Of a stretch of 64,000 nt of DNA, positions 1,087 through 55,848 are shown in pieces. The DNA is taken from the NCBI RefSeq assembly GCF_001556045.1, contig NZ_LSIC01000022.1, positions 1 through 64,000 on the forward strand, read 5' to 3'. The DNA comes from Bradyrhizobium sp. CCH5-F6 (lineage in GTDB: Bacteria > Pseudomonadota > Alphaproteobacteria > Rhizobiales > Xanthobacteraceae). The notes beneath the pieces were generated by a model. The model saw nothing but the letters and a program-made list of their open reading frames with translations. It did no database searches and had not been told where the DNA came from. How positions within the stretch are numbered: position 1 is the first letter of the stretch; each line of letters opens with the position of its first letter. Both the position numbers and the translations under genes were made by a program.

Positions 1087-1900
1087 GGATCTACCTCGTC
1101 CCCGGAGCTTCGTCGGCGGCGTCTCGAAGCCGCTTCGCGCCCTGAGGTTCCGACCAGCATGTCGTGTCGAACTCTCGCGCAAACGCACCGACCGCAACGC
1201 GCCGGATCTGGGCCGATCGGCGCCGCGTTGTCCGAAGCGAGAGGCTGTGGCGCCGATGGCATGCCAGCAGCATCGCCATCGCGGGGGAGCCCGGGTCGCC
1301 GTCGCCGGCAGACGGTGGATCGGAGTAGCTCAACCGAAGCCCCCAAAGTTCAAGTCACAAGCAGACGTTTCTTGTAATCCGCGGAAACGATGAATGAGCT
1401 TCTCAACAAAATCAAGTCAAGACGCTCGCGGAGACTGGATGTCGTCGCAGCCGAACGTAACGTTCAAGACAATCTCGCTCTCTCGGACACATGATGGTGA
1501 ACGCACATTCTCTGCCCGGCGCGCGAGATGCGTCAGATCCACGACGGTTGGATTTCATTGGCATGTTGCTGTCCGCCGTTGACGCAAACTGATCGAAGCT
1601 TGTGCATGACGACGATGTGTGTCGGCACGTCATCCACAACTTGTGCGTTCTGCCCGGGAATCCTCAGGGGAACTCGCAAGGATTACTCGTGATGGTTGTC
1701 AGGGCCGTAGTCGCAGGATCGACCGCCCCGTCGCACCTGGGGCGCGTTCTCACCCGAACGGAGGATACGCCGACGAGGGAAATTGGTCGTAGATGTGCGC
1801 GCGCATGCACGGGAAGCGTAGCGACATGCGCAATCTCCTGTCGATAACCACGGGCTGGACGGGTGACAGGCTTGTGTTGCACGCCGTCCCACCTTTCCGA
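1087..1900. other. 814-bp gap without a convincing gene
   Basis: This stretch lies between the marR-type start and the fliI stop. Short ORFs occur on both strands, but none has a recognisable domain, plausible start context or alphaproteobacterial codon use. The first ~100 bp must hold the promoter of the minus-strand regulator. I see nothing else I can support. Confidence 0.5.
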
Positions 1901-15327: not shown

Positions 15328-16064
15328 GGGTGAGGGTCCTGCTGCTCGCGTTGGTTCTGGTCGCTCTGCCCGAAGCGGCGCTGGCCCAGATTCCGGACCT
15401 GAATTCCCTGCTGCCGCCCGGCAACGGCTCGACCAGCGGTCGGATCATCCAGCTGATGGCGCTGATCACGGTGCTGTCGGTGGCGCCGGGGCTGCTCATC
15501 ATGGTGACGAGCTTCACGCGATTTGCGGTGGCGTTGTCGTTCCTGCGCGCCGGTCTCGGCCTGCAGACGACGCCTGCCAACCTGGTGCTGATCAGTCTCG
15601 CGCTGTTCATGACCTTCTACGTCATGGCGCCGACCTTCGACAGGGCCTGGGAGACCGGCGTCCAGCCGCTGATGAAGAACGAGATCTCGGAAGAGGAAGC
15701 CTATCTGAAGATCACCGATCCGTTCCGCGAGTTCATGCTGGCGCATGTGCGCGACAAGGATCTCCAGACCTTCGAAGCGCTCGCCGCGGAGAGCTTCCGA
15801 AAGAAGTTCGACGACAAGCGCATCGATCTGCGGGTCATCATTCCGGCCTTCATGATCTCCGAGCTCAGGCGCTCGTTCGAAATCGGATTCCTCATCATCC
15901 TGCCGTTCCTGGTGATCGACATGATCGTGGCGACGCTGACCATGTCGATGGGCATGATGATGATGCCGCCGACGATCCTGGCGTTGCCGTTCAAGATGCT
16001 GTTCTTCGTGCTGATCGATGGCTGGAACCTGCTGGCCTCCGGCCTGGTGCGCTCGTTCTCTTAA
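15324..16064 (+). CDS. fliP: Flagellar export gate protein FliP
   Basis: 246 aa, GTG start overlapping the fliL stop by four bases. FliP has a cleaved signal peptide (LLLALVLVALPEAALA), then the conserved LITVLSVAPGLLIMVTSFTR segment, and the C-terminal helices (ILPFLVIDMIVATLTMSMGM and FKMLFFVLIDGWNLL). It forms the pentameric core of the export gate with FliQ (30572) and FliR (32995). FliO is not seen, which is usual in rhizobia. It ends the motE unit. Confidence 0.97.
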   Translation: MRVRVLLLALVLVALPEAALAQIPDLNSLLPPGNGSTSGRIIQLMALITVLSVAPGLLIMVTSFTRFAVALSFLRAGLGLQTTPANLVLISLALFMTFYVMAPTFDRAWETGVQPLMKNEISEEEAYLKITDPFREFMLAHVRDKDLQTFEALAAESFRKKFDDKRIDLRVIIPAFMISELRRSFEIGFLIILPFLVIDMIVATLTMSMGMMMMPPTILALPFKMLFFVLIDGWNLLASGLVRSFS

Positions 16065-16178
16065 CCGCCGAAATCGCTGACCGGCTGGATATGGTTAAGC
16101 GATACGCGCTGGTTATGGTTAGCGGCGAGTAATCTTAACCATATGATTTTACAGCTAAATTCAGGCGCGCCTTAATCC

Positions 16179-16201
16179 GGAAGCAAGATTCGGCGTGCTA
16201 G
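16179..16201 (+). promoter_or_regulatory. Candidate laf box upstream of lafA1
   Basis: CGGAAGCAAGATTCGGCGTG followed by CTAG keeps the GCAAG-x-TTCGGC core and CTA of the family. It ends 127 nt upstream of the lafA1 start, nearly the same distance as the matching site of lafA2 (131 nt), leaving room for the structured leader. Confidence 0.5.
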
Positions 16202-16239
16202 CAATGCGGCACGGCGGGTTGGACCCCACCCACATCAGT

Positions 16240-16327
16240 CCAAAGGCATGATGCCGCCCTTCCGTACCGGTGAAAGCCCGGTATGTCCCCTCGTGAAATG
16301 TAACGCGTACATAAAGGGACATTCGCA
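16240..16327 (+). promoter_or_regulatory. Structured 5' leader of lafA1 with sequestered ribosome-binding site
   Basis: Three blocks shared with the lafA2 leader occur in the same order. The first is CCAAAGGCATGATGCC (16240-16255). Nine nt later comes stem 1, TACCGG 16265-16270 with CCGGTA 16278-16283 around a 7-nt loop. Stem 2 follows without a gap: TGTCCC 16284-16289 with GGGACA 16316-16321. Stem 2 includes the AAAGGGA Shine-Dalgarno sequence 6-10 nt before the ATG, so translation should be inhibited while it is closed. FlbT binds a flagellin leader in Caulobacter; FlbT is encoded at 29727 here. Confidence 0.7.
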
Positions 16328-17236
16328 ATGTCAAGCCTGCTTACGAACTCGACTGCCATGACCGCACTCCAGACCCTGCGGTCTGTGAGTTCGCAACTCT
16401 CCACCACGCAGAACCGGATCTCCACCGGTCAGCGCGTGGCCACCGCGTCGGACAACGCCGCCTACTGGTCGATCGCCACCTCGATGCGCGCCGACAACGC
16501 CGCGCTCTCCGCGGTCTCGGACTCGCTCGGTCTGTCGGCCGCGACCATCGACACCGAATACACCGCTCTGACCTCGGTGATCGGCGACAAGGACTCGGGT
16601 CTGACCAAGCTCCAGGCGCTGCTGGTCCAATCCAAGACCGCCGGTATCGACCGCACCAAGATCCAGGCGGACATCACCCAGATCCAGCAGGACATGAAGC
16701 TGAAGGCCAATTCGGCGACCTTCAACGGCATCAACTGGCTGAGCACCACGACCGGTACCACACCGACGAGCTTCAGCCTGGTGTCGTCCTACTCGCGCGT
16801 CGGCGGCACGCCCACCATCGGCTCGATCACGGTGACGACGGCCAACTACACGCTCTACTCGACCACGCAAACCGGCATTCTGGACACCGTGGCCGGCAGT
16901 GCGTCGGTCGACACGATCAACATCTCCGCGCTGACCGACTCGGCCGCCGACCAGACCACGCTCGATGGCTACATCTCGAAGGTCACCGCGGCGATCAACT
17001 CCGTGGCCTCGGCCGCTGCCGATCTCGGTGCCGTCAAGAACCGCATCTCGACCAACACGAACTTCGTGAAGTCGCTGATGGACTCGGTTGACCGCGGTGT
17101 CGGCCAGCTCGTCGACGCGGACATGAATGCGGAATCGACCCGCCTGGCTGCCTTGCAGGTGCAGCAGCAGCTCGGCGTGCAGGCACTCTCGATCGCCAAC
17201 AACAGCAGCCAGAGCATCCTGTCGCTGTTCCGCTAG
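16328..17236 (+). CDS. lafA1: Lateral flagellin LafA1
   Basis: 302 aa. The N-terminal D0/D1 helices (SLLTNSTAMTALQTLRSVSS, LSTTQNRISTGQRVATASDN) and C-terminal helix (QQQLGVQALSIANNSSQSIL) are canonical. The central exposed region (about residues 135-215) is short and Ser/Thr/Gly-rich, consistent with a thin filament. No cleavable signal is expected; export is by the flagellar type III route, probably aided by FlaF (29383). It is a tandem near-duplicate of the next gene, including the leader. The symbol follows Bradyrhizobium lateral-flagellin usage. Confidence 0.93.
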   Translation: MSSLLTNSTAMTALQTLRSVSSQLSTTQNRISTGQRVATASDNAAYWSIATSMRADNAALSAVSDSLGLSAATIDTEYTALTSVIGDKDSGLTKLQALLVQSKTAGIDRTKIQADITQIQQDMKLKANSATFNGINWLSTTTGTTPTSFSLVSSYSRVGGTPTIGSITVTTANYTLYSTTQTGILDTVAGSASVDTINISALTDSAADQTTLDGYISKVTAAINSVASAAADLGAVKNRISTNTNFVKSLMDSVDRGVGQLVDADMNAESTRLAALQVQQQLGVQALSIANNSSQSILSLFR

Positions 17237-17253
17237 GACCAGATCATCGGAGG

Positions 17254-17290
17254 AAGGGCCGCGCTTCAAGCGAAGCGCGGCCCTTTCGTT
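17254..17290 (+). terminator. Rho-independent terminator after lafA1
   Basis: A perfect 14-bp stem (AAGGGCCGCGCTTC at 17254-17267 with its complement at 17272-17285) with a four-base loop, followed by TCGTTT, begins 18 bp after the lafA1 stop. It should separate lafA1 from lafA2, so each flagellin has its own promoter and mRNA. Confidence 0.9.
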
Positions 17291-17354
17291 TGGCGTGTCG
17301 CGGCGCGTACGCCGTCATTTCGGCTGCCTGTTGCGCGCGGAGCACAGAGCCACA

Positions 17355-17381
17355 AGCCTCGCACAAGCTTCGCCCGCTAAC
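17355..17381 (+). promoter_or_regulatory. Candidate laf box upstream of lafA2
   Basis: AGCCTCGCACAAGCTTCGCC followed by CGCTAAC is the best example of the family. Its first 12 bases (AGCCTCGCACAA) recur exactly upstream of fliF. Downstream bases TCGCC and CGACAGAT also match the site at 37467, so similarity extends about 40 nt there. It ends 131 nt before the lafA2 start. Confidence 0.6.
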
Positions 17382-17427
17382 CTCGCCGTTACGACAGATT
17401 GGGCCTTGAACCTGCGCTTGCGGGAGC

Positions 17428-17511
17428 CCAAAGGCATGACGCCGTTCTGTCGTACCGGTGCAAGCCCGGTATGTCCCCTCAGCACGATTCAATCTCCAAA
17501 GGGACATCAAA
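17428..17511 (+). promoter_or_regulatory. Structured 5' leader of lafA2 with sequestered ribosome-binding site
   Basis: The architecture matches the lafA1 leader. CCAAAGGCATGACGCC (17428-17443) is followed after nine nt by stem 1, TACCGG 17453-17458 with CCGGTA 17466-17471 and a 7-nt loop, then stem 2, TGTCCC 17472-17477 with GGGACA 17501-17506. The loop of stem 2 differs in sequence and length from lafA1 while both arms are unchanged, which argues that the pairing is selected. Confidence 0.7.
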
Positions 17512-18426
17512 ATGGGTTCTAGTCTCCTCACCAACTCCTCCGCCATGACCGCGCTCCAGACCCTGCGGTCTGTCAGCGCCCAACTCGCTACCACGCAGAA
17601 CCGGATCTCCACCGGCCAGCGCGTCGCCACCGCGTCGGACAACGCCGCCTACTGGTCGATCGCCACCTCGATGCGCTCCGACAACGCCGCGCTCTCCGCG
17701 GTGTCCGACTCGCTCGGGCTGTCGGCCGCGACCGTGGACACCGAATATACTGCTCTGACGTCGGTGATCGGCGACAAGGACTCGGGTCTGACCAAGCTCC
17801 AGGCGCTGCTGGTCGAAGCCAAGACCGCGGGTATCGACCGCACCAAGATCCAGGCGGACATCACCCAGATCCAGCAGGACATGAAGCTGAAGGCCAACTC
17901 GGCCACCTTCAACGGCATCAACTGGCTGAGCACCACAACGGGTACCACCCCGACGAGCTTCAACCTCGTTTCGTCCTACTCGCGCGTCGGCGGCACCCCG
18001 ACAATCGGTTCGATCACCATCACGACCGCCAACTACACGCTCTACTCCACCACGCAGACCGGCATTCTGGACACCGTGGCCGCCAGCGCCTCGGTCGACA
18101 CGATCAACATCTCTGCGTTGACCGACTCGGCGGCCGACCAGACCACGCTCGATGGCTATATCTCTAAGGTCACCGCTGCGATCAACTCGGTGGCCTCGGC
18201 CGCTGCCGATCTCGGCGCGGTCAAGAACCGCATCTCGACCAACTCGGAGTTCGTCAAGACCCTGATGGACTCGGTTGACCGCGGTGTCGGCCAGCTCGTC
18301 GACGCCGACATGAACGCGGAATCGACCCGCCTCCAGGCGCTGCAGACTCAGCAGCAGCTCGGCGTTCAGGCGCTCTCGATCGCCAACCAGAACAGCCAGA
18401 GCATCCTGTCGCTGTTCCGCAGCTAA
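17512..18426 (+). CDS. lafA2: Lateral flagellin LafA2
   Basis: 304 aa from the ATG at 17512, placed after AAAGGGACATCAAA; an in-frame GTG at 17458 would translate through the conserved RNA leader and is rejected. The protein is nearly identical to LafA1, with substitutions concentrated near the N-terminus (GSSLLTNSSAMTALQ) and C-terminus (ALQTQQQLGVQALSIANQNSQ) and one extra terminal Ser. D0/D1 domains are intact and the variable domain is short. The filament is probably a mixture of both subunits (inference). Separate terminators suggest separate transcripts. Confidence 0.93.
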   Translation: MGSSLLTNSSAMTALQTLRSVSAQLATTQNRISTGQRVATASDNAAYWSIATSMRSDNAALSAVSDSLGLSAATVDTEYTALTSVIGDKDSGLTKLQALLVEAKTAGIDRTKIQADITQIQQDMKLKANSATFNGINWLSTTTGTTPTSFNLVSSYSRVGGTPTIGSITITTANYTLYSTTQTGILDTVAASASVDTINISALTDSAADQTTLDGYISKVTAAINSVASAAADLGAVKNRISTNSEFVKTLMDSVDRGVGQLVDADMNAESTRLQALQTQQQLGVQALSIANQNSQSILSLFRS

Positions 18427-18443
18427 GCGACGCTCCCGAAAAC

Positions 18444-18470
18444 GACCGTGCTCCCTCAGGGAGCACGGTC
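18444..18470 (+). terminator. Strong hairpin after lafA2
   Basis: GACCGTGCTCCC (18444-18455) pairs perfectly with GGGAGCACGGTC (18459-18470) around a 3-nt loop, 17 bp past the lafA2 stop. No T-run follows, so intrinsic termination may be weak; it may also protect the mRNA 3' end. Confidence 0.75.
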
Positions 18471-18664
18471 CCCGCCACGTTTCGCGGACGTGACGGCACG
18501 GGACGTGCCGGCAATCGACCTTCCGGCCCCAGACTTCGTGCAACTCGCCGCAGCCGATCGCGCTGCCACGCGCCCGAGCGTGCGCTTGTAGCTGCTGAGC
18601 CGACTGGGCCCGCCCGAGCTTCATGTAAAATTGCAACGCCTCGCCAGCGAAACGACACATTGGT

Positions 18665-18692
18665 AGCCTCGCACAACCTTCAGACAAGGTTG
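18665..18692 (+). promoter_or_regulatory. Candidate laf box and palindrome upstream of fliF
   Basis: AGCCTCGCACAA is identical to the start of the lafA2 box. It runs into CAACCTT (18674-18680), which forms a perfect 7-bp inverted repeat with AAGGTTG (18686-18692). The element ends 41 nt before the preferred fliF ATG at 18734. Confidence 0.55.
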
Positions 18693-18733
18693 AAGGCTGA
18701 GTGTCCTCTGCGTTCGCATTGGTACGAGGTCAC

Positions 18734-20359
18734 ATGCTCAGTCGTGCGCAGGTACAGCAGCTGCTCAATAATCTGCTGGAGCTTGGGCCGCGTCGCCTGA
18801 TGGCCCTGGGACTGATCGGCTTTGCGGTTCTCGTCACGGTCGTCGGCGGCGCCTATTACCTCAGCCGGCCCGAGTTCGAAGCGCTCTACACCGGCCTCAC
18901 CCGAGAAGACGTGACGCGCATCGGTGCGGCGCTGCGCGAGCAGAACATCGCGTTCGACGTCAATTCGGCAGGCGATGCGGTCTCGGTGCGCCCGAGCCAG
19001 ACCATGCAGGCGCGGATGCTGCTCGCCGAGAAGGGGCTGCCGACCAGCGCCAATTCCGGTTACGAGCTGTTCGACAAGATCGGCTCGCTCGGCCTGACCT
19101 CGTTCATGCAGGAGGTCACCAAGCTGCGGGCCCTGGAAGGCGAGATTGCCCGCACAGTCCAGCTGATGAAAGGCGTGAAGGCGGCGCGGGTGCATATCGT
19201 GCTGCCGGTGCGCGGCTCGTTCCGCGCGACGCAGCAGCCGCCTTCGGCATCGGTCGTGCTGCGCACCGACGGCGCGATCGAGGCACGAACGGCGCAGTCG
19301 ATTCGTCATCTCGTCGCCGCTGCCATCCCCGGCATGAGCCGCGACAAGGTGACGGTGCTGGATGCCGACGGCTCGATGCTGCTCGCCGAAGAGGACGAGG
19401 CGAGCGCTGCGCCGGCCAAGATGGCGAGCCTGCAGAAGACGGTCAGCGGCATGGTGCAGGAGAACATCCGCAAGGCGCTGACGCCGTATCTGGGCATCGA
19501 CAATTTCGAGGTGAGCGTTGCGCCGCAGCTGTCCACCGACAAGCGGCAGATCAACGAGACCGTCTACGATCCGGAGAACCGCGCCGAGCGCTCGGTGCGG
19601 AACGTGCGCGAGAAGGAGTCCTCGCAGAACGCCGACCGCTCGACGCCGACCACGGTGCAGCAGAATCTTCCCGACCAGCAGGTGAATGCCGGTGGAGGCA
19701 AGAACTCCAGCGAGGACAAGACCCGCCGCGAGGACGTCACCAACTTCGAGGTTTCGTCCAAGACCACGACGACAGTGAGCGACGGCTATTCGGTCAAGAA
19801 GTTGTTCATCGCCGTGCTGGTCAACCGCGCGCGACTGGTCGCCGAGCTCGGCGACAAGAGCAACCAGGCTATCGTCGACAGCAAGCTCGCCGAGATCAGT
19901 CAGCTCGCGGCGACGGCGGGAGGACTGGACAAGGCGCGCGGCGATCAGATCCAGGTCACGGCCGTCGACTTCATCGAGGGCTCGCGTGAGCTGGCACCGG
20001 TGCCGCCGATCAGCTTCGTCGAGATGATCAACAAGCAGCTCGGCAGCGTCATCAACGCGGTGACGATCCTGGCCGTTGCTTCGATGCTGGTCTGGTTCGG
20101 GCTTCGGCCCGCGGTCAACGGCATTCTGACCCATCGCGCGGAGCAGGAGCAGGCAGAAGCGGCCGAGGCCGCCCAGCTCGAAGCTGCGGGGACCCTGGCA
20201 CTGTCGGATGGCGAGGAGGCCGAGCTCAACCTCGTCGAAGACCTCGAAGGCAAGATGCAGCGAACGCCGCAGAAGCGGCTGGAGCAGATCGTCCGGCTCG
20301 ACCAGATGCAGGCGGCGGCGATCCTTAAGGACTGGATGCGACGCGAGGAGGCGGCATGA
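18734..20359 (+). CDS. fliF: Flagellar MS-ring protein FliF
   Basis: About 541 aa from the ATG at 18734, which has GAGG four nt upstream; a GTG at 18701 is an alternative 11 codons earlier. An N-terminal membrane helix (LMALGLIGFAVLVTVVGGAY) precedes the ring-building motifs (YTGLTREDVTRIGAALREQN; KVTVLDADGSMLLAEEDE). A second membrane helix (VINAVTILAVASMLVWFGL) is followed by the C-terminal FliG-binding tail (RLEQIVRLDQMQAAAILKDWM). FliF is the base of the flagellum and the housing of the export gate. It opens the fliF-motB-motC-fliK run. Confidence 0.97.
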   Translation: MLSRAQVQQLLNNLLELGPRRLMALGLIGFAVLVTVVGGAYYLSRPEFEALYTGLTREDVTRIGAALREQNIAFDVNSAGDAVSVRPSQTMQARMLLAEKGLPTSANSGYELFDKIGSLGLTSFMQEVTKLRALEGEIARTVQLMKGVKAARVHIVLPVRGSFRATQQPPSASVVLRTDGAIEARTAQSIRHLVAAAIPGMSRDKVTVLDADGSMLLAEEDEASAAPAKMASLQKTVSGMVQENIRKALTPYLGIDNFEVSVAPQLSTDKRQINETVYDPENRAERSVRNVREKESSQNADRSTPTTVQQNLPDQQVNAGGGKNSSEDKTRREDVTNFEVSSKTTTTVSDGYSVKKLFIAVLVNRARLVAELGDKSNQAIVDSKLAEISQLAATAGGLDKARGDQIQVTAVDFIEGSRELAPVPPISFVEMINKQLGSVINAVTILAVASMLVWFGLRPAVNGILTHRAEQEQAEAAEAAQLEAAGTLALSDGEEAELNLVEDLEGKMQRTPQKRLEQIVRLDQMQAAAILKDWMRREEAA

Positions 20360-28283: not shown

Positions 28284-29330
28284 ATGATGAGCGCAAACTA
28301 CGTTTCCACCCTGATGTTGTCCTCGTCGTTGAGATATTCGATCACGAGTAACCAGGCGGCGCTGACCAGGGCCTCGACGGAGGCGACCACCGGCCGTTTC
28401 TACGACGTTGGGCTCGAGCTTGGTGCCACGACGGGAAGCGACCTCACGCTGCGGGCCGACTTCAGCTTCGCCGATCAGCTCGTCGACACGAACGGGCTCG
28501 TCGCGGGACGCCTGGACGTGACGCAGAACCGGATCACCCAGCTCAGCAAGACGGCGACTGACTTCCTCAAGGACCTGATCGCGGCTCGCAGTACCGACGG
28601 CGGCGGGCGGGTCATCCTGCCGCCTGCGGCGTCCAATCTCCAGGATCTGATCGGCGCCTTGAACGTCTCTTATAACGGCTCGTATCTGTTCTCGGGCATC
28701 AACACGCAGAACGAGCCCATCACGGCTTACGCCGCGGGCTCGGCCAGCAAGAACCAGGTCGATGCGGATTTCCTCGCGACCTTCGGCTTCTCGCAATCCT
28801 CGCCCAATGTGGGCACCATCACCCCGGCCCAGATGCAGACCTTCCTCGACACCACCTTCGATGCGGAGTTCGCGAGCCCGGCCTGGAACACCAACTGGTC
28901 GTCGGCCACCGACCAGACCATGCAAAGCCGCATCTCCACGACCGAGATCGCCGAAACGTCCGTCAGCGCCAACGAGGCCGGCTTCCGCAAGCTCGCCGAG
29001 GCCTACACCATGATGGCCGATCTCGGGAATGTGAACCTGAGTCAGGAGACGTTCCAGGTCGTCGTGGACAAGGCGATCGGGCTCGTCGGCAACGCCATCA
29101 ACGACCTCGCAGCGCTCGGCGGCTCCGTCGGCACGGTCCAGCAGCGGATCACCACCGCGACGGCCAAGCTCAAGACGCAGCAGGACATCCTGAACAATCA
29201 GATCGTTGGCATGGAGAAGGTCGACCCGACCGAAGCCTCGGTCCGGGTCAATACCCTGCAGACCCAGATCCAGACCGCGTTGGCGCTTACCTCGCAGCTC
29301 CAGAAGATCAGTCTCATCAACTATCTCTGA
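28284..29330 (+). CDS. flgL: Hook-filament junction protein FlgL (HAP3)
   Basis: 348 aa, flagellin-like ends: N-terminal RYSITSNQAALTRASTEATT and C-terminal VDPTEASVRVNTLQTQIQTA with LTSQLQKISLINYL. Longer than flagellin and without the flagellin signature, it matches FlgL, the second junction protein that seats the filament. The gene follows flgK with a 3-bp gap. Confidence 0.94.
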   Translation: MMSANYVSTLMLSSSLRYSITSNQAALTRASTEATTGRFYDVGLELGATTGSDLTLRADFSFADQLVDTNGLVAGRLDVTQNRITQLSKTATDFLKDLIAARSTDGGGRVILPPAASNLQDLIGALNVSYNGSYLFSGINTQNEPITAYAAGSASKNQVDADFLATFGFSQSSPNVGTITPAQMQTFLDTTFDAEFASPAWNTNWSSATDQTMQSRISTTEIAETSVSANEAGFRKLAEAYTMMADLGNVNLSQETFQVVVDKAIGLVGNAINDLAALGGSVGTVQQRITTATAKLKTQQDILNNQIVGMEKVDPTEASVRVNTLQTQIQTALALTSQLQKISLINYL

Positions 29331-29355: not shown

Positions 29356-29382
29356 TTGTTCGGTCTTCGAAGAGTGGTCCTG

Positions 29383-29727
29383 ATGACGTTTGAAGCCTAT
29401 GAAGCGGTCGTTGACGAAAGCGGCTATGAAGCGCGAAGCCGCGAGCGGCAGGCGCTCAGCCTCGGCATCGACCGGCTCGAGCGGATCCAGAAGGGGCGTT
29501 TCAGCCTCGAGGACCTGGTCGAGAGTCTGCTCTATGTGCGGCGGCTGTGGACGATCTTCATCGAGGATCTCGCTCACCCGGAAAACGGGCTGCCGGACAA
29601 GCTGCGCGCCGACATCATCTCGATCGGCTTGTGGGTCGTCAAGGAAGCCGACCGTCTCCGCGAGGAGAAGTCGAACGACGTGGCGCAACTCATCGAAATC
29701 AACCGCCTGATCAGAGACGCGCTCTAA
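29383..29727 (+). CDS. flaF: Flagellin assembly regulator FlaF
   Basis: 114 aa from the ATG at 29383; an upstream in-frame ATG at 29356 would add nine non-conserved residues. The all-helical FlaF fold is recognisable (YEAVVDESGYEARSRERQAL, LYVRRLWTIFIEDLAHPENG, LPDKLRADIISIGLWVVKEA). FlaF is an alphaproteobacterial protein needed for flagellin synthesis and secretion, acting against FlbT; it substitutes functionally for FliS, which is absent here. Its stop shares one base with the flbT start (TAATG). Confidence 0.95.
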   Translation: MTFEAYEAVVDESGYEARSRERQALSLGIDRLERIQKGRFSLEDLVESLLYVRRLWTIFIEDLAHPENGLPDKLRADIISIGLWVVKEADRLREEKSNDVAQLIEINRLIRDAL

Positions 29728-30137
29728 TGAAGATCTCCTTGCGGGCGGGCGAACGGATCTACGTCAACGGGGCAGTGCTTCGTGTGGACCGCAAGGTGTC
29801 CGTCGAGCTCGTCAACGACGTGATGTTTCTGCTCGAAGGGCAGGTCATGCAGGCTTCCGACGCCACCACGGCCCTGCGGCAGCTCTATTTCATCGTCCAG
29901 CTCATGCTGATGAACCCGACCGATGTCCGCGACGCTGCGGCGCTCTACGCGCAGCATCACGCAGCCCTGTGCGCCGTGTGTGAGAACCGCGAGATGCTGG
30001 ATGGACTCGGCGCGGTCGACGAGCTGGTCGGGGCGACGCGTTACTTCGAGGCGCTCAAGCGGATTCGGGCGCTGTTTCCGGTGGAGCAGGCCATCCTGGC
30101 CGGAGCCGCCACCGTTTCCCCATTCGAGGCTGCCTGA
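29727..30137 (+). CDS. flbT: Flagellin mRNA regulator FlbT
   Basis: 136 aa starting at the ATG that overlaps the flaF stop. The N-terminal beta-rich part (ISLRAGERIYVNGAVLRVDR, VSVELVNDVMFLLEGQVMQ) and helical C-terminus (ALRQLYFIVQLMLMNPTD) fit the FlbT family. In Caulobacter FlbT binds the flagellin 5' untranslated region and promotes its decay until the hook is finished. The two flagellin genes here have a conserved structured leader (16240-16327 and 17428-17511), the natural target. Confidence 0.95.
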   Translation: MKISLRAGERIYVNGAVLRVDRKVSVELVNDVMFLLEGQVMQASDATTALRQLYFIVQLMLMNPTDVRDAAALYAQHHAALCAVCENREMLDGLGAVDELVGATRYFEALKRIRALFPVEQAILAGAATVSPFEAA

Positions 30138-55250: not shown

Positions 55251-55289
55251 TCGTTTTTCGCCGCGAGAGCGGTGTGCCGGATGCCAGAA

Positions 55290-55386
55290 TCGGGTCCGGC
55301 ACGGGCGCCGGACCGGTCTGCGGACCCCGTCTGAGACCCGGCCTTGCGCTCCTTCGTATCCATCTTGCTCTTTGGAGGACTTGGTT
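55290..55386 (+). promoter_or_regulatory. ROSE-type RNA thermometer before hsp20
   Basis: The 3' end, ATCTTGCTCTTTGGAGGACT, carries the ROSE signature: U-rich UUGCU facing UUGGAGGA so that the Shine-Dalgarno sequence is paired at low temperature. ROSE elements control small heat-shock genes in Bradyrhizobium japonicum (established knowledge). Upstream sequence (GGGTCCGGCACGGGCGCCGG, then ACCGG and CGGACCCCG) can form the additional leader hairpins. The upstream boundary is approximate. Confidence 0.75.
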
Positions 55387-55848
55387 ATGAGGACCAGTTT
55401 CGACTTTGCGCCCCTGTGGCGCTCCACCATCGGCTTCGATCATCTGGCCGACCTCGTCGACAGCACGCTGCGCCAGGCGACCGAGGACAACTATCCCCCC
55501 TACAACATCGAGCGTTCCGGCGAGGACCACTACCGGATCAGCCTTGCCGTGGCGGGCTTCGGCGTCAACGACATCACGGTGACGGCCGAACAGAACGCCC
55601 TGACCATCGAAGGCCGGAAGCCCGAGACCGCCGCGCGCGAATACCTCTACCAGGGCATCGCCGCGCGTCCGTTCCGGCGCGTGTTCAACCTCGCCGACTA
55701 TGTGCAGGTGAAGCAGGCCTCCTTCCAGGACGGGCTCCTGATCATCGACCTCGTCCGCGAGGTTCCGGAAGCCATGAAGCCGCGCCGGATTCCGATCGCG
55801 GGCGGAACACCTGCGGCATCGCAGATCGAGCAGAAGAAGGCTGCCTGA
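55387..55848 (+). CDS. Small heat-shock protein Hsp20 (class A type)
   Basis: 153 aa. N-terminus RTSFDFAPLWRSTIGFDHLA, then the alpha-crystallin domain (NIERSGEDHYRISLAVAGFG, ALTIEGRKP, ASFQDGLLIIDLVREVPE). FDFAPLWRSTIGFD marks the IbpA-like class A of rhizobia. It holds unfolding proteins for refolding by DnaK. Expression is predicted to rise on heating through the upstream ROSE element. Confidence 0.95.
   Translation: MRTSFDFAPLWRSTIGFDHLADLVDSTLRQATEDNYPPYNIERSGEDHYRISLAVAGFGVNDITVTAEQNALTIEGRKPETAAREYLYQGIAARPFRRVFNLADYVQVKQASFQDGLLIIDLVREVPEAMKPRRIPIAGGTPAASQIEQKKAA

Follow-up and report, generated by a model that had tools for sequence, protein, structure and literature searches.

A conserved four-hairpin leader before flagellin genes of Bradyrhizobium and its relatives hides the Shine-Dalgarno sequence, with FlbT as a candidate partner

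INTRODUCTION

The 5′ untranslated region of a Caulobacter flagellin mRNA is reportedly read by FlbT, a finding that reviews trace to Anderson and Gober in 2000. Flagellin leaders in Bacillus and Campylobacter are controlled by CsrA and FliW, and the ROSE thermometer is an RNA element that hides a Shine-Dalgarno sequence.

Published accounts of FlbT do not agree in sign. Excerpts of a 2015 review describe FlbT control of flagellin translation as unresolved, with opposite signs in two organisms: FlbT promotes decay in Caulobacter and is a proposed activator in Brucella (PMC4347634). Part of a Brucella review also presents FlbT as a proposed activator; it describes FlaF as a repressor of FliC and states that cells with an unfinished hook still produce FliC (PMC8781033). 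Caulobacter FlbT acts as a repressor until the hook-basal body has formed (PMC3930126); according to excerpts of another paper, it acts with the flagellin paralogue FljJ, and FlaF is a flagellin secretion chaperone (PMC7591256). For the lateral flagella of Bradyrhizobium, a review excerpt reports that FlbT induces translation of LafA1 and LafA2 (PMC8429497). A structured RNA of the Rhizobiales, flg-Rhizobiales RNA (RF01736), is also flagellar and has three stem-loops, as described in part of its source (PMC3765529).

Here we describe a leader shared by two flagellin genes of Bradyrhizobium sp. CCH5-F6, found in a 64,000-nucleotide stretch of DNA that we call the window. Like the Caulobacter leader, it is a flagellin mRNA leader with FlbT in the same system and with candidate post-transcriptional control; unlike that leader, for which decay or repression is reported, it probably serves activation. 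It shares with the CsrA/FliW-controlled leaders its place at the Shine-Dalgarno sequence of a flagellin mRNA and a putative protein reader, but here GGGA lies inside the 3′ arm of a hairpin and is not exposed in a loop. Like ROSE it hides a Shine-Dalgarno sequence, although it does not match the ROSE model (RF00435).

RESULTS

Two flagellin genes in the window share a leader of four hairpins

The two genes, called lafA1 (16328..17236, ATG at 16328) and lafA2 (17512..18426, ATG at 17512) by position, lie on the plus strand and carry PF00669 and PF00700 domains. Direct reading located a 16-mer upstream of each (CCAAAGGCATGATGCC at 16240-16255 in leader 1 and CCAAAGGCATGACGCC at 17428-17443 in leader 2, both on the plus strand), with zero-mismatch occurrences in the window confined to these two leaders; at three or fewer mismatches there were 4 matches against 1.32 expected. 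Both leaders contain CCAAAGGCATGAYGCC, then 9 nt, then TACCGG-N7-CCGGTA and, without a gap, TGTCCC-N26/N23-GGGACA, which ends 6 nt (leader 1) or 5 nt (leader 2) before the flagellin ATG. This arrangement comprises three plus-strand hairpins. P1 is GGC-ATGAT-GCC at 16245..16255 in leader 1 and GGC-ATGAC-GCC at 17433..17443 in leader 2, as seen by direct reading, in the alignment and in the tree-aware test described below. P2 (16265..16283 and 17453..17471) pairs TACCGG (16265-16270 and 17453-17458) with CCGGTA (16278-16283 and 17466-17471) across a 7-nt loop. P3 (16284..16321 and 17472..17506) pairs TGTCCC (16284-16289 and 17472-17477) with GGGACA (16316-16321 and 17501-17506) across loops of 26 and 23 nt. 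The RNA consensus is GGC-AUGAY-GCC for P1, UACCGG-N7-CCGGUA for P2 and UGUCCC...GGGACA for P3, of which the 3′ arm is the Shine-Dalgarno sequence. The two leaders are not a chance resemblance: a covariance model of 30 sequences, with both among its training rows, scored them at 70.4 and 72.7 bits, and the next best site in the window scored 10.2.

A fourth hairpin, P0, ends one nucleotide 5′ of P1. In leader 1 (16219..16243, plus strand) it pairs TTGGAC (16219-16224) with GTCCAA (16238-16243), and in leader 2 (17399..17431, plus strand) TTGGGC (17399-17404) with GCCCAA (17426-17431), so that the two leaders already differ by a compensated pair. Complementarity is kept while the sequence changes, and the arms in relatives include TTGAACC/GGTTCAA, TTGGATC/GATCCAA, GTTAACC/GGTTAAC and others. 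With 55 distinct 3′ arms, the mean score for pairing with the upstream sequence was 13.15 for a leader's own arm, compared with 8.10 for foreign arms and 8.27 for shuffled upstream sequence; the observed sum for own arms was reached in 0 of 2,000 permutations, a test that keeps relatedness among leaders in. Not every leader has P0, since the weakest rows (L039, L063 and L045) scored no better with their own arms than with foreign ones, and best-fit loops ranged from 3 to more than 30 nt.

The original prediction placed the shared arms at the correct coordinates, and its loop lengths and invariant arms hold on direct reading. Its two-stem RNA survives as a conserved structured leader that hides the Shine-Dalgarno sequence and is kept across orthologues, but with four hairpins, and the CCAA that it took for free sequence is part of the 3′ arm of P0. 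A further gene with flagellin domains (28284-29330, plus strand), in an FlgL-like position after flgK, is without such a leader.

The leader is nearly exclusive to flagellin genes

Searches used covariance model R1, which covers P1 to P3 only. For this model, 41 of 138 parsed leaders were picked and the second window leader was added (42 rows); 39 aligned, and 9 of these were dropped for a misaligned P2 or P3 or a diverged P3, leaving 30 sequences. In the window and 78 further loci (79 sources, 500,795 bases), R1 gave 140 matches at E≤0.05. Of these, 138 adjoin called flagellin starts, out of 146 such starts; the structured leader is kept across orthologues. Both remaining matches lie near contig ends and, by reading, precede flagellin-like starts. 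Eight flagellin starts had no match, two of them with an upstream region cut by a contig end.

Among 199 genomes of the order to which Bradyrhizobium diversitatis (G006) belongs, 40 carried the leader at E≤1e-3, at 65 sites. Compared by eye, 60 of these sites precede a flagellin gene, 4 a chemoreceptor gene and 1 a flagellin-like open reading frame (ORF). A further 27 sites had E values from 1e-3 to 0.05: 7 precede flagellins, 9 were unfetched, and 11, where no flagellin was seen, look like chance matches. Because strict filters were applied in searches of more than 40 genomes, remote forms of the leader may be missed in these counts and in the search of 385 genomes of the class, where strong model matches were confined to G006 and G044. 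Five matches in class genomes, at E 0.0036 to 0.0052, had no flagellin in the fetched flanks.

The four chemoreceptor-associated leaders, all on the minus strand (L121 1655-1724, L122 1591-1654, L123 1619-1685 and L124 1709-1751), belong to two pairs of genomes. In G099 and G133 the downstream gene encodes HAMP and MCP signal domains, and in G196 and G032 protoglobin and MCP signal domains; one gene of each pair was run against Pfam and the other was read as its close relative. P3 is altered in the leaders of G099 and G133. In G196 and G032, P0 to P2 are kept and P3 is unrecognisable, a hint that P0-P2 is a portable recognition part.

The G094 leader lies before an ORF that contains flagellin-like stretches and neighbours a fliF-like ORF (L155 2793-3800, minus strand; both by reading). 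The first of these ORFs is perhaps a decayed or repurposed flagellin.

Comparison of leaders supports the structure

In the 30 aligned leaders, 95.1% of paired cells were complementary, compared with 22.4 to 49.6% when partners were slid. Shuffled columns still pair at 92.6% because the arms hardly vary; 95.1% was reached in 0 of 500 such shuffles, and the number of pair types in 59 of 500. Unaided, RNAalifold recovered P1, P3 and the four innermost pairs of P2.

A tree-aware covariation test was run on the 74 unique sequences among the 138 leaders, with the flagellin protein tree as the null. Two P2 pairs covaried, with E values of 0.017 and 0.03 when counted over the 15 pairs of the structure but near 1 over all 861 column pairs. 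The best P1 pair had p 0.03 and E 0.10 and the best P3 pair p 0.01 and E 0.27, values that are no more than suggestive given how little these two hairpins vary. No pair outside the structure did better than E 1.44 over 861 column pairs. The original prediction had called for a covariance model and compensatory changes in its two stems; the first of them (P2) covaries, but for the second (P3) the signal is suggestive only. In P3 the 5′ arm UGUCCC is nearly invariant; at one position its partner alternates between A and G, and a G-U pair preserves the helix.

The loop of P1 is also nearly invariant: AU is present in 74 of 74 leaders, the next G in 70 and the following A in 73. Part of this conservation reflects how the leaders were selected, since they were found with patterns for P1 (2 substitutions allowed) and P2-P3 (4 allowed) that bias these parts towards invariance. 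A partner that recognises the loop would account for its conservation, and pairing does not.

An upstream ORF starting at the AUG of P1 was considered and rejected. Its reading frame varies with respect to the flagellin start (56, 38 and 32 leaders in the three frames), its length varies from fewer than 10 to more than 25 codons, and the AUG is absent in 5 of 131 leaders. In 106 of 126 leaders the distance from this AUG to P2 falls in the same frame; a fixed structure would give the same result.

The Shine-Dalgarno sequence is paired in predicted folds

In predicted folds of 117 leaders, the GGGA of the Shine-Dalgarno sequence had a mean unpaired probability of 0.06. For 50 of these leaders, the value was 0.067, compared with 0.213 when the upstream part was shuffled (p 1.5e-12). 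The claim that structure hides the ribosome-binding site is supported in these predicted folds: GGGA is mostly paired, and pairing is partly lost on upstream shuffling.

Folding energies are ordinary and count against unusual stability of the leaders. Single-sequence z scores were -0.35 to -1.33 in four window stretches and averaged -0.96 over 40 leaders, with 4 of the 40 below -2. The case for structure consequently rests on comparison and not on energy. From 40 nt before P1 to +25, mean pair probabilities for P1, P2 and P3 were 0.15, 0.93 and 0.35 in leader 1 and 0.57, 0.58 and 0.87 in leader 2.

A helix between GGCAUG (P1) and YAUGUC (the P2-P3 junction) was examined as a built-in switch and is not supported. 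The two parts are fully complementary in 93 of 117 leaders, and a random 6-mer matches in 40 of 2,760 draws; covariation is uninformative here because both are nearly invariant. A fold with this helix is 14 kcal/mol less stable than the P1+P2+P3 state and 8 kcal/mol less stable than an open state lacking it.

A promoter-like block abuts P0

Directly 5′ of P0 in leader 1 lies a promoter-like block of CAYGRCRGG type, CACGGCGGG (16210..16218, plus strand). Its counterpart before leader 2, TACGACAGA (17390..17398, plus strand), has diverged by two mismatches to CAYGRCRGG and hence gives no match. When at most one mismatch is allowed, 32 of 68 dereplicated leaders have the motif with its start at -14 to -5 of P0, and in 19 of these the start is exactly -9; in 200 shuffles the mean was 0.53 and the largest count 3. 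P0 was placed by complementarity alone, so the fixed phase of this block supports P0 independently. CAAG occurs at -37 to -34 in 13 of 58 leaders. Judged from their sequence, CAYGRCRGG and CAAG may together form a promoter, with transcription starting near the 5′ arm of P0.

Consensus scans near the leaders found neither a sigma-70 consensus nor terminators, and published transcription start maps contain no mention of the flagellins in the main text of PMC4842269. By reading, a perfect 12-bp hairpin (GGGCCGCGCTTC/GAAGCGCGGCCC) followed by TTTCGTTT lies between the two flagellin genes (17256-17283, plus strand). It is likely a terminator, although absent from the consensus-scan output, and points to separate transcription of gene 2.

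Leader-bearing genomes share one clade of FlbT

In the window, the leaders adjoin flagellin genes and flbT (29727..30137, plus strand; PF07378) lies in the same flagellar cluster, which makes it the candidate reader. The flaF ORF, with TTG at 29356 and a start that is not settled, occupies 29356..29727 (plus strand; PF07309, E 3.7e-32). FlbT was found in 138 of 199 order genomes and 64 of 190 class genomes, mostly without the leader; Caulobacter vibrioides is among the genomes that match the FlbT search. Compared by eye, every leader genome except G122 has FlbT (39 of 40). As a marker for the leader, FlbT presence says little, since most leaderless genomes have it too. FlbT as such is not specific to the leader.

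In a tree of 61 FlbT rows, all 39 leader-genome rows fell on one side of a branch with 100/99 support, and 20 of 22 remaining rows, including the second paralogue of 8 leader-bearing genomes, fell on the other. The leader-genome rows were 37 of the 39 FlbT-positive leader genomes (not G116 or G147), G168 (weak leader, E 0.006) and the window; for genomes with two FlbTs, the copy nearer the leaders was used. The 22 other rows were hand-chosen and not random: 8 second paralogues, 12 leaderless genomes and 2 of a longer FlbT type. Seven of the 12 leaderless genomes were searched again with laxer filters, with best E values of 0.046 to 1.09. One of the two exceptions, G192, does carry a weak leader (E 0.0028) ahead of a flagellin gene; in the other, G129, no leader was seen. 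Several genomes, among them G168, G073, G144 and G173, carry FlbT at a distance from the leaders or on a different contig. The clade split may do no more than track the two flagellar systems and mirror the descent of the whole lateral one (PMC6406911, excerpts).

The leader matches no Rfam 15 family

No Rfam 15 family matched the leaders in a scan of the window and a lax scan of 15900-18800, and a scan of 20 flagellin loci gave nothing but tRNA at gathering thresholds. Below gathering, the lax scan gave matches that were set aside: a twister-sister match at 17454-17470 (15.8 bits, E 9.2), which is P2 of leader 2 resembling one ribozyme hairpin, taken as chance, and ACAT (18461-18635) and Clostridiales-2 (17902-17960) matches.

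RF01736 was rejected as the identity of the leader. It had no match up to E 10 in 15900-18800 and none at gathering (55 bits) in the 20 flagellin loci. In 2 of 9 genomes, G006 and G007, it exceeded the cut-off (109.1 and 98.9 bits) at sites other than the leaders. Unlike the leader, it lies in L079 over the start of a flagellar-rod-like ORF (flgF by reading) and has GGGA loops. In this Bradyrhizobium copy (1501-1645, minus strand) the GGGA loops recall CsrA sites; CsrA was not found in that genome.

CsrA was not found in five leader-bearing genomes (G006, G044, G032, G078 and G114). The N-terminal part of FlbT compared with CsrA over 10 to 13 columns at a probability of 0.5 to 17% (15 of 30 CsrA loci used), and further FlbT comparisons cover mainly residues 47 to 130. 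In the window, RF00435 matched only at 55277-55393 (plus strand; 53.8 bits, gathering 45).

DISCUSSION

The leader represents a new RNA family within a known type, the structured flagellin leaders, and FlbT is its candidate partner. No description of it was found in titles and abstract openings of the open-access literature. We propose, at about even odds (probability near 0.5), that a cis-regulatory RNA of about 110 nt, composed of P0, P1, P2 and P3, forms the start of each flagellin mRNA. By default, P3 would pair the Shine-Dalgarno sequence with the nearly invariant UGUCCC and hold translation at a low level or shut it off. The P0-P1-P2 part, in which the P1 loop offers AUGA and the P2 stem CCGG, would form a recognition module bound by the lateral-type FlbT encoded in the same cluster. 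FlbT binding would open P3, which begins immediately after P2, or hold it open, and flagellin would be made.

A role for FlbT as reader is plausible given its place in the same cluster, the matching clade and the reported induction of LafA1 and LafA2. The original prediction leaned on Caulobacter-style decay, which probably has the wrong sign, as FlbT is a reported inducer of Bradyrhizobium lateral flagellins and a proposed activator in Brucella; the candidate effect is likely activation. The suggestion that FlaF opposes FlbT would fit, by analogy, the FlaF repression of FliC described in part of the Brucella review (PMC8781033). Coupling to hook completion would likewise be carried over by analogy, from a report in Caulobacter (PMC3930126), and excerpts on Brucella offer a counter-example (PMC8781033).

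A switch built on P3 could also be read by something other than FlbT, such as FlaF, unexported flagellin, another protein, a small RNA or a metabolite. We consider this possible though rather unlikely. FlbT contact with the leader is something we infer, FlbT is common in genomes without the leader, and both the partnership of Caulobacter FlbT with a flagellin paralogue (PMC7591256, excerpts) and FlaF repression of FliC in Brucella (PMC8781033, in part) are in line with other readers. However, translation of LafA1 and LafA2 is reported, in a review excerpt, to depend on FlbT (PMC8429497), and leader genomes match one FlbT clade. Slightly less likely again is a leader without regulation, whose hairpins would shield an abundant mRNA from 5′ decay and fix its rate of translation. 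P0, in keeping structure and not sequence, does behave like a generic 5′ protective hairpin, but the nearly invariant unpaired AUGA loop of P1 and the buried Shine-Dalgarno sequence suggest recognition and control.

It is improbable that the hairpins are promoter or operator palindromes acting in DNA, with little of the region transcribed. The strongly placed CAYGRCRGG block abutting P0 would suit such elements, but P0 loops of 3 to more than 30 nt, compensating changes and the pairing of P3 with the Shine-Dalgarno sequence are traits of RNA, and the block, if a promoter, would cause the hairpins to be transcribed. An RNA thermometer in which P3 melts with temperature is less probable still: the paired Shine-Dalgarno sequence and the ROSE element elsewhere in the window bring it to mind, but the leaders match no Rfam thermometer, P3 combines a perfect helix with a large variable loop, and a thermometer would leave P0-P2 without a function.

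The FlbT-read switch might extend to a modular family, an idea that we hold only tentatively and regard as doubtful in full. P0-P1-P2 would be read by the lateral FlbT clade as a translational activator and joined to an exchangeable P3 platform; the module before chemoreceptors in two gene lineages would make a small regulon of filament and chemoreceptor, and two FlbT clades would read different leaders.

The leader is probably a switch that decides when the main building block of the flagellum is made. It offers a precisely drawn RNA target with nearly invariant positions, so that binding and switching become directly testable, and Rfam would gain a family now absent from Rfam 15. If the modular reading is true, filament and chemoreceptor form a small regulon under translational control by FlbT, and a genome with both FlbT clades tells its two flagella apart because each clade reads a different leader. 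The leader also suggests a way in which cells with two flagella could separate their flagellin programmes.
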